Positions 30,312 through 37,495 of a stretch of 45,037 nucleotides of DNA are shown here, piece after piece. The notes beneath the pieces are model-generated. The model worked only from the letters and a program-made list of their open reading frames with translations, did no database searches and was not told where the DNA came from. Origin of the DNA: Candidatus Stahliibacteriota bacterium (GTDB lineage Bacteria > Hydrothermota > Tepidihabitantia > SM23-42). Location: positions 1-45,037 of the forward strand of contig JAUVZL010000016.1 in assembly GCA_030602565.1 (NCBI GenBank). The letters run 5' to 3'. Each line of letters opens with the position of its first letter. Position 1 is the stretch's first letter. The translations under genes and the position numbers were made by a program.

Positions 30312-32483
30312 TTACTTGTTGAGTCTATCTAGTATTTCTTCGGCAGTTGCCGCAACAAATTGATCTTTATGATTGGTCGCTTCACGTAAAGCTCCCATTG
30401 TTTTTTCACTACCTATCTTTGCCAAGCTATTGAGGACTGCGCGTTTTGTTGGGTGCAGGAGATCAGCTTTGAAAATCGGGCGTTCGCTCAAAATCGCGAC
30501 TAATAGTTCGAGCACTGAGTCGTCACCAAAGCGTCCCAGGACACCGATTATCTCCTGTCTGAACTGCTCTTCTTTGATATCTGGGATGCCCTTACGGGAT
30601 TTCAACCATCCTGCCACTTCGGTAAGCTTATCCAGCACGTCCTCCTTTTCCAGGTGTTTCATCGCCGCAATAACCACCTTATTGTACTTGCTTTGCAGTC
30701 CTTTAAGAAGATAGGATTTTATGTTTTCGCTACCAGTTTTCATGAGACTATCGATGACTGCTAATTGCACCTGCTCTTCGTCGTCATTTATTAACGGACC
30801 GATTCTATCAATCACTACACTTGTTTTCATTTCACCCAAGATAAAAATGCCGTTTCTGCGGATGTACCATTCCGATGAGTCGAGAAGCTTCTGAACTTCG
30901 GGCACTGCACGTTCACCCATTTTAATGATTACATCGATGATCTTCATTCTCACGGCTCGGTTCTCAGTTTCATTTAATGCTGCAATAAGTACTGGCATTG
31001 AAAACTCAGCCAACGAAATGAGTGCCGCGCGTGCTTCGACAAAGGTTCCAGGATCCCAAAGTAGCGAGACCAGCTCAGGCACATAGTTTTCATCTTTGAT
31101 CTCATTAATCGTGCGAATCACCGTCTTCTTTCTTTCCAGTAATGCTGTATCTTTTCTCAACAAGTGCTTGCCGAATTTCTTTGAGATAAATTGTATCATA
31201 TCATCTTGCTTCAATGCTTTTGCTTTCAAGTAAATATTTTCGAGTGCGCTGATCACGCTGACAAAAGTCTTCAATTCTGTTTCCGCATCAGCCATTGTGT
31301 CAAAGCGATCAACGAGAAGTCTGAGCACATCGTAATTCTTTGATTCAAAAATCCGGTCCTGGAACCCCATGAGATCTTCAACTGCCTTAATACGTTCATC
31401 ACGTGATGAATCACGCAAGCGCGGAAAAATCAACCTCATTTCTTGTTCCATATTTTTACTCATGAATTTATCCGCCGCCTTCTTTCCTTTAACAGTTTTC
31501 AACTCACTCATTAAACGTGAAGCAATTTTTTCAAAATCCAATTCTGGCACATTTACTCTTAAGGTAGACAGGATGCCAGGCAATCTTGAACCCGTAACAT
31601 TCTTCAAAATATCAACAATCTCTTGCTCGACCCGAGGTGACCTCTCTTTCGCCTTCACTGAAACGACGTCAATGATGTCCTCGTCAGACATTGTCGGTAT
31701 CAAACTTTTGAAGAGAACAGCTAGTTTCTTGTTCTCGGTGCGATACTTGGCAATATTCTTTTTTATGGTTGGTGACAGAACAGACAGCATTCGCGAGAAC
31801 ACTATCGAGTATTCATCCCACCGATCTTCACCATACTGGTCGGCAACCATGAGGGCTAATTTCTCAAGACCTGAGACAATTTTCCCTGTCTGCACCTCTA
31901 TCGGCTCACTGCCACCAATGCCAATCCCCGCCAGGAAACCGCTAAGCTCCTTTACCTTATCGTCGTCACTCATTGCGATCTGACCCGTAGTCAAAGATTC
32001 TAAAAACTGATCCCAATTTATCGACTGTGCTCCAGCATCACTCGATATTACACCCACACGAAATTTGTTAACTGTAATTCTGGTGACGCCTCGCGCTCTC
32101 AGTAAAGCAACGATATCACCATAATCAGCGATATCAGCAGGCGTGGCGGCCATTGCATTGAAGAACTCCTGGAGATCCTCCTCGGTTTGCTGAACACTAA
32201 AGGTTATACTTTTAACGCCCAATTGACTAAATCTGTTCACCAGACTCTTCACGATCGGCAACCGCTTTGAATCAAAGCGTTCTTCCCCAATCATTATTAT
32301 ACCTTCAACGATCACCAAGGAAATCGTCTCCTGCTCTATCGGTACTTCTCTGAGCAATATTCTCAAGCGTTTTACAATTGGTATCAATGAAGGATGCCCC
32401 TTTGGATATGTTTTGGATATATTGGCACCCAACCCAATCTGTTTGATCAAATCATTGAGGAATTTCATTGAATAATCTGCCAT
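30312..32483 (-). CDS. HEAT-repeat protein
   Basis: The 723-residue soluble protein has an N-terminal alpha/beta region (YPKGHPSLIPIVKRL, then GVKSITFSVQQTEEDLQEFF). This resembles the domain that precedes HD or HEAT domains in other bacterial signalling proteins. The C-terminal half carries HEAT-type repeats (for example AVPEVQKLLDSSEWYIRRNGIFILGEM; about residues 470-720). It has no catalytic motif. It is the third gene of a cyclase operon, two bases behind the 214-residue cyclase protein, so a protein-binding or effector role downstream of the cyclase proteins is plausible. Confidence 0.8.
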   Translation of the reverse strand: MADYSMKFLNDLIKQIGLGANISKTYPKGHPSLIPIVKRLRILLREVPIEQETISLVIVEGIIMIGEERFDSKRLPIVKSLVNRFSQLGVKSITFSVQQTEEDLQEFFNAMAATPADIADYGDIVALLRARGVTRITVNKFRVGVISSDAGAQSINWDQFLESLTTGQIAMSDDDKVKELSGFLAGIGIGGSEPIEVQTGKIVSGLEKLALMVADQYGEDRWDEYSIVFSRMLSVLSPTIKKNIAKYRTENKKLAVLFKSLIPTMSDEDIIDVVSVKAKERSPRVEQEIVDILKNVTGSRLPGILSTLRVNVPELDFEKIASRLMSELKTVKGKKAADKFMSKNMEQEMRLIFPRLRDSSRDERIKAVEDLMGFQDRIFESKNYDVLRLLVDRFDTMADAETELKTFVSVISALENIYLKAKALKQDDMIQFISKKFGKHLLRKDTALLERKKTVIRTINEIKDENYVPELVSLLWDPGTFVEARAALISLAEFSMPVLIAALNETENRAVRMKIIDVIIKMGERAVPEVQKLLDSSEWYIRRNGIFILGEMKTSVVIDRIGPLINDDEEQVQLAVIDSLMKTGSENIKSYLLKGLQSKYNKVVIAAMKHLEKEDVLDKLTEVAGWLKSRKGIPDIKEEQFRQEIIGVLGRFGDDSVLELLVAILSERPIFKADLLHPTKRAVLNSLAKIGSEKTMGALREATNHKDQFVAATAEEILDRLNK

Positions 32484-32485
32484 AA

Positions 32486-33130
32486 TTATTTTTGTTTCAC
32501 CTTATACTCATAAGCCTTCACAGACAAAGCGTCTTTAATAAACTCTCCAACTTCACTAAAGCTGAAAAAGGCCTTTGTTGCATCATATAAGTTTTCACAA
32601 ACAAGCAGCGAGTTCTCAACCGCGTTCTTCTGCAAAATCTGACATTTCTTAAACCCTTTGGTGACAAGCAAGGTATCACGTAAATTACTGTATATATTGA
32701 CCACTGAAACCGGTTCAAGGACCATACCTATTTTCAAACCAACCGGACTCGCCAAGTACTCCTTCTTATTTATTTCACCCAATTTCTTGAGCATATCCTC
32801 TGCTGCAAAAACCGCCATATGTGCAGCAAAGCCGGATTCTTTGGGAAAACCAAATACACTGACAACTTCATCGCCGATAATTTGATATATTACTCCTTTA
32901 TATGATTCAATAATTCTTGAAAAAAGCGCGAATACCTCATTGAGAAAAACCATGACATCTTCGGCAATCATTGTTTCACTCATCTTTGTAAAACCTGAAA
33001 GATCAGCACGCATAAAAACCATATCGAGTTTTTCCATGGGCAAATAACTGTTTTTATCGAGTAAAGTACCACACCAAGGACAGAAGCGTGATGGGTCATC
33101 AATTTCTTTGCTGCAAGCTGGACATTTCAT
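32486..33130 (-). CDS. Zinc-ribbon class III cyclase-domain protein (C1-like half)
   Basis: The 214-residue protein has an N-terminal zinc ribbon (C3, C6, C17, C20) and a class III nucleotidyl cyclase domain. Both metal-binding aspartates are present: D43 in MRADLSGFTKMSE and D87 in IIGDEVVSVFG. The substrate lysine three residues before the GD glycine is replaced (Q83), and the N-x3-R transition-state motif cannot be found in the second half. On its own it therefore has only half of an active site. The upstream gene supplies the other half, see findings. The gap to the upstream gene is three bases. Confidence 0.8.
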   Translation of the reverse strand: MKCPACSKEIDDPSRFCPWCGTLLDKNSYLPMEKLDMVFMRADLSGFTKMSETMIAEDVMVFLNEVFALFSRIIESYKGVIYQIIGDEVVSVFGFPKESGFAAHMAVFAAEDMLKKLGEINKKEYLASPVGLKIGMVLEPVSVVNIYSNLRDTLLVTKGFKKCQILQKNAVENSLLVCENLYDATKAFFSFSEVGEFIKDALSVKAYEYKVKQK

Positions 33131-33133
33131 AGT

Positions 33134-36100
33134 CTATAACTCCAGCAGCTTTACGTATTCAGGTCTACTGATATATGCTTGACGTCGTGTTTCTTTCAGT
33201 TTAAGTTTGATATCATCGTGTATGAGCAATGCCTTCCTGGCATAATGTCTGGCTTTCTCAAAATCCTCTTCAGCAAGATGCAGCTCAGTCATTCGAAAAA
33301 GAGCAGCGGCAATCAAGGGCGGCAGCTTTATCTCCTCAGCGATATCCAGGGCGTCTCGAGCATATTCATCGGCTTGCTCCCTCTCTAGCGAAGAGAGTAA
33401 TCTACAACACTGACATTCAATATCCCGACGACTCAGTTTCTGTGCCGCCTTGAGAGCAATCATCGCAAAATCAATTGCCTTTTGGTGGTTCGACTTATAG
33501 GAGTTAATCATCGCCTTTCTCAAGTTTATTTCAGCAAGCAACTCATCTCTTATGAAAAATGAAAATTTTGCATCAGCGAGTTGGGTGTACTCATCTACTT
33601 TTTGAGAATCGCCATTAATTGAGTAAATGATTGCAAGGTCTAATGCTGATTTTACATATGTTTCAACATTATCAATACTGTCAGCGATTTCAAAACACTC
33701 TAATAGAGCTTCTTGAGATTGGGTAAGAGCCCAAATTTCAAGCATGGTTTCCGCGATTTGGTATTTATACTGCAATTGCCAGCGTATATCCTCGTTCGGG
33801 ATCAAATCACTCAAGCCATAATCAAGATATTCCAGTGTCTGTTCATAATTACCTAAATTATTGTGAAGCTTCGCCATATTGAGCAGACACAATATCTCAC
33901 CCTTTTTTATTTTATGCTCCTGGGCTGTTTTCCAACTCATATTATAATTGAGAAGGCTCCTCTCATATTCATTCCTTGTTTGATAAAGAAGACCCAAATC
34001 CGAATACAGAACAGCAAGGATTTCAACCATCTCTCCACCACATTTATCAGTCGCACTAAGGAACAATTCTTCGGCTTCACTGAATCTATTTATAAGGAAA
34101 AGCGAGTAACCATAGCGTTCCAGAAAACCAACCTCACTTTCGACGTTTTTGTCAAAACGTGCGCTCTTTAGTCCTTGCTCAGCAATTTTCTCCATTTTTT
34201 TGATATCGCCGGTAATCTCGTAAAGGTCGGTCATATTAAGAAAAACCGAACGCATCAAACTATTTGCTAAGGTTGCCGTATCCTTGTCAATTCCGAGCAC
34301 CCTATTGTAGAACTCCAGTGCCTGTCCAACCGCGTATAGGTTCTTTGCTTTGTCGCCCGCCAATGCAAAATAAGTGGCTGCCTTTCCATGATCTTCACAG
34401 GATAAATAATGGTGGGCAATATCCTCATAAAAGGTCGAGAGTTGATTACTATAGAATTCTTCAAACAATGTAGCCACGAGTTTATGTATTTCCCGTCTTT
34501 TTCGCACTGGCAACATAGTATAAGCAGCATCTTTAAGAAGGTTATGACGGAATACGTAAATTGGATCCTGGCCATTCTTGGAAATAATAATATAACCCTC
34601 TTCAATAAGGTAGTCCAGTTGTTCTCGTAAACCTTCGTATTTTAAAAGACCGTGGAGAATACGATAGCTAAAACTATAACCGACTACTGATGCATAGTCA
34701 ATTATTAAACGATATCTTGCGGGCAGTGAATCAATCGTTGACATCACGACACCGTACAAATCATCGAGAAAGGAAAGGCGCTGATCCTTCTCTAATACCC
34801 ACCGGCCAGCTACTTTCTTAATGACTTCTGTGCGGCGCGTATTTCGTACAGCTTCAATGGTAAAAAGCGGGTTCCCACCAGCCGACTTATACATAAACTG
34901 CACTAAATTCTTCTCCACATCATCAAGGATATGAGTAACCAGATCCTTTACTTCATGAAAAGCCAACGGCGTTAGATTAATTTCTTCAATCGGGGTATCA
35001 ATGTTCGTAAGGAATTCCTTCGATACATTAACCAGGAGGAACATAACAGGTTCATCTCTTAATTCAGAAGTAAGATAGGCCATTAAATACTTCGACATCT
35101 CATCCGCCTTATTGAATTCTTCGAAGATAATAACCAATGGATAAACCCGGCCTTCGAAGCGAATAAGGTTTTTCACCGAGTTGTATATCTCCTCATTTAT
35201 GGAAAGCATCTCATCCTGTTTGATGCGGTGCATATCAGTGAGGAATAGATGCTGCAACCCTTTGGCAACTAACGGCGATAAGTGTCTCCGGGCAATACTT
35301 TCATCAATCTTCTTGGCTATTGCGACACTACTATCATATTCAGTTATCTCAAAATAACGAGCCAGCAGAAATTTAAAAGGAAAATAAGGCGATGGTACTT
35401 CAACTGAACAGTGAGTTTCAAAATACTTGAAGACTCCATCCTCACTGAGGAACTTCTCGAATTCCTCTTTTAGACGACTCTTGCCAATACCCATCTGACC
35501 AGTAATTATACACAACCCGGCTTTGTTTTCTTTAATAGACTGAGCGATTTCGAGCAACTTGTTTAATTCCCGCTGCCGACCGCAAAATGGGATTTTCTTA
35601 GTCACGCCTACTCGTTCTGGTTTTTTCAGATTTCTAACAAGATAGATATTGACTTTGGCTGCCTTGCCTTTGATACTACGCTCCCCGATGTGTTCCGTAT
35701 CAACATGCTCCTCGACTCGACTAAAGGTATTTTCACTCATTAACATCTCATTGGGCGGACACATCTCAGCAATACGAGATGCTGTATTAATTGTATCGCC
35801 GATTACTGTAAGGAACGCGGATTCCTCAAGAATATAGCCAAAAAAGGCACGGCCGGTGTTCATCCCTATTGTGAGTTCAATATCTTTGCATAAATCGACT
35901 TCTTTTTTGTATTCTAACCACCGATTCTTAATTTCCCACGCACAATTGAGACTCCGTACCGGATCATCTTGGTGCGCTTTAGGCGCACCAAAAATCCCTA
36001 ATATCCGGTTATCTGGAACAATCCGATTGGATGTCCCTTGGAAACGCATTATGATATCTTCAACATCGGTCATGCACTTTCTTAAGGTAATCATTATATC

Positions 36101-36307
36101 CTGGTCATCCTTTTTATCGATTATGTTCTCCAAACCGATGAAGCTGACAAAAAAAACTGAAAGGATGCGCAATTCACCGCCCCAGAATTTCAGGCGGTCA
36201 GAGGCGGTTGATTGCTTATCATCAATGGATATGCGCGCGCCGCATGTTGGGCAATACAATGCTTGCTCAGCGCTGTATTTATGGTGGCATAATGAACACT
36301 CTTTCAT
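33134..36307 (-). CDS. Zinc ribbon/cyclase/AAA ATPase/TPR signalling protein (C2-like half)
   Basis: The 1057-residue protein has a zinc ribbon (C4, C7, C19, C22), a class III cyclase domain (about 45-225), an AAA-type ATPase (Walker A GQMGIGKS at 270-277) and TPR-like repeats to the end. In the cyclase domain the first metal aspartate is serine (S55 in VFFVSFIGLE), but the second (D99), T167, N174 and R178 (IGDTINTASRI) are kept. The ATPase-TPR part resembles STAND-type sensors. It is probably the sensory partner of the next gene in the operon. Confidence 0.85.
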   Translation of the reverse strand: MKECSLCHHKYSAEQALYCPTCGARISIDDKQSTASDRLKFWGGELRILSVFFVSFIGLENIIDKKDDQDIMITLRKCMTDVEDIIMRFQGTSNRIVPDNRILGIFGAPKAHQDDPVRSLNCAWEIKNRWLEYKKEVDLCKDIELTIGMNTGRAFFGYILEESAFLTVIGDTINTASRIAEMCPPNEMLMSENTFSRVEEHVDTEHIGERSIKGKAAKVNIYLVRNLKKPERVGVTKKIPFCGRQRELNKLLEIAQSIKENKAGLCIITGQMGIGKSRLKEEFEKFLSEDGVFKYFETHCSVEVPSPYFPFKFLLARYFEITEYDSSVAIAKKIDESIARRHLSPLVAKGLQHLFLTDMHRIKQDEMLSINEEIYNSVKNLIRFEGRVYPLVIIFEEFNKADEMSKYLMAYLTSELRDEPVMFLLVNVSKEFLTNIDTPIEEINLTPLAFHEVKDLVTHILDDVEKNLVQFMYKSAGGNPLFTIEAVRNTRRTEVIKKVAGRWVLEKDQRLSFLDDLYGVVMSTIDSLPARYRLIIDYASVVGYSFSYRILHGLLKYEGLREQLDYLIEEGYIIISKNGQDPIYVFRHNLLKDAAYTMLPVRKRREIHKLVATLFEEFYSNQLSTFYEDIAHHYLSCEDHGKAATYFALAGDKAKNLYAVGQALEFYNRVLGIDKDTATLANSLMRSVFLNMTDLYEITGDIKKMEKIAEQGLKSARFDKNVESEVGFLERYGYSLFLINRFSEAEELFLSATDKCGGEMVEILAVLYSDLGLLYQTRNEYERSLLNYNMSWKTAQEHKIKKGEILCLLNMAKLHNNLGNYEQTLEYLDYGLSDLIPNEDIRWQLQYKYQIAETMLEIWALTQSQEALLECFEIADSIDNVETYVKSALDLAIIYSINGDSQKVDEYTQLADAKFSFFIRDELLAEINLRKAMINSYKSNHQKAIDFAMIALKAAQKLSRRDIECQCCRLLSSLEREQADEYARDALDIAEEIKLPPLIAAALFRMTELHLAEEDFEKARHYARKALLIHDDIKLKLKETRRQAYISRPEYVKLLEL

Positions 36308-36475: not shown

Positions 36476-37495
36476 ATGAGAGTCAATCTGAGGGCATATT
36501 CACTTGAGCGAATTAAATGCGCTATGGCAGCACGCAATATCGAACCATACCGTGCTGCCCAAATATTCCAGTGGATCTGGCAAAAGAACGCACAAGATTT
36601 CTCGGTAATGACCAACATCTCAAAAACACTAAGGCACGCACTCGCTGAAGAATTCGACATTAGAGGATTAGTTATAGAAAAGATAGCGGGAACAAAAGAT
36701 GGTGTTCAGAAGTTTTTGTTCAGAACTGAAGATAATCTAAACATCGAAACGGTATCCATCCCCGAGCAAAAAAGATGGACAATCTGTATTTCAACTCAGG
36801 TTGGCTGTCCATTAAATTGCAAGTTCTGCGCTACTGGATTGATGGACTTCAAACGAAATCTTGGGGCACATGAGATCGTTGATCAAATCCGCCTTGTCCA
36901 ACAAAGTATCGGTAGTAAAATAACCAATATTGTCTTTATGGGTATGGGTGAGCCCTTATTAAATCTCAAACAAGTCATCGAGGCACTTGATATCATTAGT
37001 TCGCCGATTGGGCTCAGCATTAGTCAACGACATACGACAATCTCAACCGTAGGGATTATTAAAGGTATCAGAGAGCTCCTTAGATCAACGCTTAAAGCCA
37101 AGTTGGCAATATCATTAAATTTTGCCGATGATCAGCTACGCCAAAAGATGATGCCTGTAGCAAAACGTAATTCCCTCAAAGAACTCATGAGCGTTGCACG
37201 CGAGTATTCAACAAAGAAATCTATGGTTACCTTTGAATATGTTTTGATCGACCGTATCAATGATCATTTGGAGGATGCCGAACGTCTATTAAAGCTGGTT
37301 AATGGGATACCGTCAAAAATAAACCTTATTACCTACAACCCCTATCCGCGGCTACCCTATAAAAAGCCTTCTCCAACTAAGGTCAAGCGATTTCATGATT
37401 TTCTATTAAAGTCAACTCATAGTATCACGCTTCGAAAATCGCGCGGTAATAGAATACGTGCTGGCTGCGGTCAGCTCGCCGCATCAAATGCTTGA
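36476..37495 (+). CDS. rlmN: Dual-specificity RNA methyltransferase RlmN
   Basis: The 339-residue radical-SAM enzyme has the cluster motif GCPLNCKFCATG. It also carries the second catalytic cysteine near the C-terminus, in GNRIRAGCGQL. It methylates C2 of A2503 in 23S rRNA and of A37 in some tRNAs. MGMGEPLLNL and ISLNFADDQLR are further RlmN motifs. The length is normal. It is a single gene, with a glycan cassette of different base composition beginning about 70 bases downstream. Confidence 0.96.
   Translation: MRVNLRAYSLERIKCAMAARNIEPYRAAQIFQWIWQKNAQDFSVMTNISKTLRHALAEEFDIRGLVIEKIAGTKDGVQKFLFRTEDNLNIETVSIPEQKRWTICISTQVGCPLNCKFCATGLMDFKRNLGAHEIVDQIRLVQQSIGSKITNIVFMGMGEPLLNLKQVIEALDIISSPIGLSISQRHTTISTVGIIKGIRELLRSTLKAKLAISLNFADDQLRQKMMPVAKRNSLKELMSVAREYSTKKSMVTFEYVLIDRINDHLEDAERLLKLVNGIPSKINLITYNPYPRLPYKKPSPTKVKRFHDFLLKSTHSITLRKSRGNRIRAGCGQLAASNA

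Follow-up and report, generated by a model that had tools for sequence, protein, structure and literature searches.

Can two adjacent bacterial genes, each encoding a class III nucleotidyl cyclase domain with part of the usual active site, make one enzyme between them? The question is raised by a 45,037-nucleotide stretch of DNA from Candidatus Stahliibacteriota bacterium (contig JAUVZL010000016.1, positions 1 to 45,037), hereafter the window, whose source genome belongs to the candidate phylum WOR-3 (Ca. Stahlbacteria); the distant families and sampled class III domains compared below come from the same phylum. Three genes, labelled P2, P1 and P3, are packed head to tail in that order on its minus strand. 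We propose that P1 and P2 are probably the C1 and C2 halves of one heterodimeric cyclase, gated by the STAND/TPR part of P2, with P3 as a probable scaffold and cyclic AMP (cAMP) as the most likely product. The three genes are as follows.

33134-36307, minus strand: P2, 1,057 residues, with a zinc ribbon, a class III domain (C2-like), a STAND/AAA_16 ATPase and TPR repeats (open reading frame; Pfam AAA_16, Guanylate_cyc and TPR_12; fold matches)
32486-33130, minus strand: P1, 214 residues, with a zinc ribbon and a class III domain (C1-like) (open reading frame; Pfam; profile match to C1 halves)
30312-32483, minus strand: P3, 723 residues, with an N-terminal alpha/beta domain and HEAT repeats (Pfam HEAT_2; helical solenoid in the predicted model)

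The TAG stop of P2 is followed after 3 bases by the start of P1, which shares the P2 reading frame. Both proteins carry an N-terminal CxxC...CxxC zinc ribbon, and the class III fold is recognisable in both, with Pfam Guanylate_cyc scores of 37.8 bits for P1 and 39.1 bits for P2 (curated cut-off 21.9). A sequence-only reading of the window had already described these coordinates, protein lengths, the 3-base spacing and the two zinc-ribbon proteins, all of which agree with the open reading frame list and the sequence. The parts of the two proteins on which the argument turns are listed here, P1 first.

33002-33004, minus strand: P1 D43, first metal aspartate; invariant (n=25)
32870-32872, minus strand: P1 D87, second metal aspartate; invariant (n=25)
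32882-32884, minus strand: P1 Q83, at the lysine position; Q in 23/25
32630-32662, minus strand: P1 residues 157-167 (TxGFxKxQxLQ), a conserved motif at the would-be Asn-x3-Arg place
35630-36175, minus strand: P2 class III domain, residues 45-226 (Pfam 50-224); best profile match, the C2 half of human soluble adenylyl cyclase (sAC)
36143-36145, minus strand: P2 S55, first metal position, lost; N/S/Q, with D in 1/21
36023-36025, minus strand: P2 R95, substrate-lysine position; K in family f2 and the distant families, mostly R in the close family
36005-36013, minus strand: P2 D99-N100-R101, second metal loop, altered by a one-residue insertion; D99 and R101 unchanged throughout the close family
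35807-35809, minus strand: P2 T167, base-contact position; invariant
35786-35788, minus strand: P2 N174, transition-state Asn position; invariant
35774-35776, minus strand: P2 R178, transition-state Arg position; invariant
35039-35590, minus strand: P2 STAND/AAA_16 NTPase domain, residues 240-423 (Pfam)
33158-34510, minus strand: P2 helical TPR region, about residues 600-1050 (TPR matches; helical repeats in the model)

Aligned to a profile of complete class III domains from the same phylum, the active site of P1 reads D-Q-D without Asn-x3-Arg, and that of P2 reads S-R-(D, one insertion)-T-N-R. The residues named in the sequence-only reading, D43, D87, Q83 and the missing N-x3-R in P1, and S55 at the first metal position with T167, N174 and R178 in P2, are as it gave them. 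An ungapped alignment would place I96 at the lysine position of P2; we rejected that assignment, as the profile alignment and the lysine column of the distant families show an insertion, which makes R95 the correct residue. The same insertion, shared across the close family, shifts the invariant D99 by one position.

The division of residues is a family trait. P1 is present in 24 further genomes of the family and order, and the close-family alignments hold 25 P1 and 21 P2 sequences, with identities down to 41-43%. D43 and D87 are invariant in 25/25 P1 orthologues, all of which lack the Asn/Arg pair; T167, G170, D171, N174 and R178 are invariant in 21/21 P2 orthologues, and the first metal aspartate is lost in 20/21. 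With about 15% of the domain columns invariant, the hypergeometric chance that both D43 and D87 are invariant is 0.024, and that T167, N174 and R178 all are, 0.0026. The P1 motif, in its longer form TxGFxKxQxLQKNA, is invariant or nearly so across families f1 and f2. Judged by these alignments, the complementary pattern is inherited and not the decay of one genome.

Gene order is equally stable. P2 lies directly upstream of P1 wherever the contig reaches (that of L042 ends within 139 bases of P1), the gap between them runs from -4 to +3 bases, and P3 lies directly downstream of P1 in all close-family loci. These comparisons also bear on whether a frameshift or stop introduced by sequencing or annotation has split one two-domain protein. 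P1 does follow the P2 TAG in frame in the window, but 24 other genomes share the split, with TAG, TGA or TAA stops, varied spacing and often different frames, every P1 has its own start and zinc ribbon, and in the distant families f20 and f21 P3 stands between P1 and P2. The comparison across genomes leads us to reject such an artefact, to which we assign a negligible probability.

Loci in two relatives depart from this layout. In G085 (L117, 3408-9006), P2 runs into masked letters and a SecA-like frame, and P1 is missing beside it; the locus is probably an assembly chimera, and little can be concluded from the missing P1. In G086 (L118, 6756-8069; L058, 7032-8999), a single-contig assembly, P2 is interrupted near residue 395 by an apparent inversion of about 15 kb, which is either biological or a misassembly. 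Upstream of P2 and divergent from it, the window carries an rlmN-like radical-SAM methyltransferase gene (36476-37495), and the same neighbour is found in L117 and L118.

The split recurs in more distant families. In f15 (L069), f29 (L065, L071), f20 (L067) and f21 (L156, L157), a P1-like protein of about 200 residues has both metal aspartates and no Asn-x3-Arg, and the P2-like protein keeps K, T, N and R and has lost both metal aspartates; for f21 the residues were assigned by visual inspection of the sequences, and the P2 gene of L071 ends at the contig end before its lysine. Residue for residue, this corresponds to the mammalian C1/C2 division. The gene order in f20 and f21 is P1-P3-P2, with P3 between the halves, so all three remain neighbours despite the rearrangement. 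The sequence-only reading had proposed a split class III cyclase and suggested aligning homologues for co-conservation: in the close family and in f15, f20, f21 and f29 alike, P1 always holds the C1-role residues and P2 the reverse, and the conservation of complementary residues in homologues supports that interpretation. A homologue complete by itself would have spoken against it; none of the P1 or P2 orthologues compared has a complete site on its own, and the complete cyclases are distant homologues only.

Among the other class III domains sampled in the phylum, nearly all read D-K-D-T-N-R, so an incomplete site is not usual there; exceptions include N at the first metal position in L146, D at the lysine position in L151 and Gln for Arg in L008. 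A tree of 55 domains fits one P1 group and one P2 group, with weak deep support (36/96 and 45/86). Another way to account for the pair is that P1 and P2 do not bind each other and each degenerate domain homodimerises or joins the complete cyclases of the genome, as a regulatory spare. Nine further class III domains are encoded in the window genome, which also has degenerate stand-alone ones, such as a 262-residue open reading frame on contig C2. Yet the P1 and P2 genes are coupled in all close-family loci and co-occur in the distant families, some genomes keep both without any complete Pfam-detectable class III partner, and a P1 homodimer would have no Asn/Arg and a P2 homodimer no first metal aspartate. 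We hold this account to be very improbable.

The open reading frame on C2 (L122, 5774-6562; G000) encodes a degenerate class III protein that reads D, R, D, lacks Asn-x3-Arg and has no obvious C2-like neighbour. L121 (1378-1974; G000 C85) and L164 (1879-3924; G000 C5) belong to a further observation: a stand-alone class III protein of about 200 residues has Arg replaced by Gln, and several relatives encode a similar short cyclase about 11 kb from a P3 paralogue of about 680 residues, perhaps a second related system.

Outside the phylum, P1-type halves did not appear: when the two best-conserved stretches of P1 were used as patterns to scan 84,980 species genomes, such halves came from WOR-3 only, and the matches elsewhere (Bacteroidota, Myxococcales, Alphaproteobacteria, Rokuibacteriota, Opitutia) proved to be complete cyclases whose lysine position holds Q. 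The scan is limited by its pattern, so P1 halves may occur in other phyla. Loci L092-L116 (Bacteroidota, Myxococcales and others) encode such otherwise complete class III cyclases with glutamine at the substrate-lysine position (YQYVGDEIVGVFG), like Q83.

Which known enzyme does the pair most resemble? The P1 profile matches the C1 half of human sAC (residues 40-196) and also C1 of AC5, AC8 and AC9. For P2, the profile falls on the C2 half of human sAC (288-418, E about 1e-19) and on that of AC5, but it scored best on the C1 half for AC8 and AC9, so its C2 preference is only partial. In human sAC (ADCY10), C1 and C2 make one competent site (PMC4506562), and a predicted STAND P-loop region comes after them (PMC12802110). 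The layout of the bacterial pair is therefore that of sAC divided behind C1, with a separate gene for C1. As opposed to the single chain of sAC, it comprises two genes, with the C1 gene second in the window, and its zinc ribbons and HEAT partner are additional. The C2-STAND-TPR order is present in the relatives, whereas the sAC-type chain with C1 and C2 together before STAND is not, C1 being a separate gene in every one. By column equivalence, P1 Q83 aligns with what we take to be the bicarbonate-pocket lysine of sAC C1, and the C1 arginine is absent from P1. On this alignment, Q83 and the missing arginine argue against a sAC-like bicarbonate pocket.

Predicted structures agree with the domain assignments. 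The longest model begins at residue 47 of P2, reads through the TAG and ends at residue 187 of P1 (mean pLDDT 82.6, pTM 0.57; fold and confidence output only). Its best matches are the STAND-TPR protein 6mfv, class III catalytic domains (CyaB 3r5g, TM 0.85) and Apaf-1, and the length of the CyaB match fits one class III domain, probably that of P2. In the P3 model, about 140 residues at the N terminus fold into an alpha/beta domain, and the HEAT repeats form a helical solenoid.

Two genomes offer a view of the pair in its signalling context. In G084 (97% complete) and G073 (79% complete), P1 and P2 are the sole Pfam class III matches, and no class I or CYTH cyclase was found in either genome. 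Each encodes three cNMP_binding proteins with a conserved phosphate-binding cassette (FFGEM...PRS type). A more sensitive profile search of G084 recovered two further sequences, a degenerate fragment and a divergent class III-like protein, which weaken the notion that P1/P2 is the only cyclase there. The divergent protein (L198, G084 C157, plus strand from base 2) has 739 residues with YDIRGSS and KDTGDGG motifs and lies below Pfam detection. Given this protein, P1/P2 need not be the only cyclase of G084, and the signalling argument is circumstantial. In family f30 (L152, 350-3526; L153, 6070-9276), a GGDEF domain (GGDAF motif in L153) replaces the class III domain before a P2-like STAND-TPR region, and a P3-like HEAT protein is encoded a few genes away. 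By domain order, this swap fits an exchangeable cyclic-nucleotide output.

Several observations weigh against an active heterodimeric cyclase. Q83 of P1 stands in place of the substrate lysine, and the lysine position of P2 is variable within the close family (R 9, K 5, Q 4, E 1, V 1, Y 1; n=21), with K in all four f2 order-mates and in L054. D99 of P2 is invariant although a C2 role does not need it. The f5 pair (L066) is more degenerate, with Arg replaced by Lys and the lysine absent. In G084, the divergent class III-like protein has D, K and D with no clear N-x3-R, and proteins with a cyclic-nucleotide-binding domain need not bind cAMP.

The chief rival builds on some of the same facts: P1 and P2 would be a pseudoenzyme pair that binds nucleotide at the composite site without cyclising it, and binding would switch the STAND ATPase and the HEAT partner allosterically. 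The lysine is missing in P1 and drifting in close-family P2, the invariant D99/R101 of P2 and TxGFxKxQxLQKNA of P1 point to a constraint outside catalysis, and the residues by themselves cannot separate binding from turnover. Against this, N174 and R178, with their known transition-state role, are as invariant as the metal aspartates; the lysine is retained in the distant families; other phyla have class III cyclases whose sites are complete but for Q in place of the lysine; and G084 and G073 hold cNMP_binding proteins without another Pfam-detectable cyclase. We regard a pseudoenzyme pair as unlikely, though it deserves more weight than the failure of P1 and P2 to pair.

As a catalytic heterodimer, the pair would have known counterparts. 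Like P1/P2, the mammalian transmembrane adenylyl cyclases and the alpha/beta soluble guanylyl cyclase (sGC) divide the metal aspartates and the Asn/Arg between their halves. sGC is likewise encoded by two genes, and the mammalian cyclases use other sensors (membrane/G protein, H-NOX). In the chytrid NeoR/RGC rhodopsin guanylyl cyclases, NeoR contributes the metal aspartates and RGC1 the base residues, and the second site appears regulatory (PMC12264004). These resemble the proposed P1/P2 enzyme in having two genes and one catalytic site, but are fungal, take their input from a membrane rhodopsin and have no STAND/TPR region. Prokaryotic class III cyclases are typically homodimers (PMC4886424). 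Such bacterial enzymes (CyaB, CyaC, Cya2 and the WOR-3 STAND-TPR cyclases) share the domain fold of P1/P2, and the WOR-3 STAND-TPR cyclases also share the class III-ATPase-TPR layout, but hold all residues in one domain (D-K-D-T/S-N-R); this single-domain set occurs in neither P1, P2 nor any orthologue. In Mycobacterium tuberculosis, the gene for Rv1359 lies beside another cyclase gene. Rv1359 itself, without the first metal aspartate and a critical arginine, is thought inactive as a homodimer (PMC3961136); it is a degenerate bacterial class III protein like P1 and P2, but its deficits are not known to be complemented by a demonstrated partner. Our search of the open-access literature turned up no natural bacterial class III cyclase described as a heterodimer.

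How would the heterodimer work? P1 would supply the two metal aspartates, D43 and D87, and P2 would supply T167 for base contact, N174 and R178 for the transition state and R95 as a substitute for the lysine. In the head-to-tail dimer only one site would work, and the pseudo-site opposite it would be dead or allosteric. Class III geometry should place D99/R101 of P2 across from TxGFxKxQxLQKNA of P1, an arrangement suggestive of an allosteric pocket. The STAND ATPase and TPR region of P2 would gate activity, P3 would probably serve as a scaffold, and the product, most likely cAMP, would be sensed by CRP-like proteins. More speculatively, and with considerable doubt, the system may be an ancient, phylum-wide two-gene counterpart of sAC, in which the pseudo-site is a new allosteric ligand pocket and the STAND ATPase and HEAT scaffold license assembly of the active site.

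In eukaryotes, heterodimeric class III cyclases occur naturally, the known two-gene cases being sGC and the chytrid NeoR pair. If P1 and P2 do form one enzyme, bacteria too would have evolved, or retained, a C1/C2 specialisation. For the C-terminal P-loop region of human sAC, no specific regulator has been found (PMC12802110), and whether ATPase-driven assembly acts as a second-messenger switch is a question still open for the full-length human enzyme. The STAND link in P2 would make such a switch testable, and a soluble two-gene system would let each half be mutated or titrated separately.

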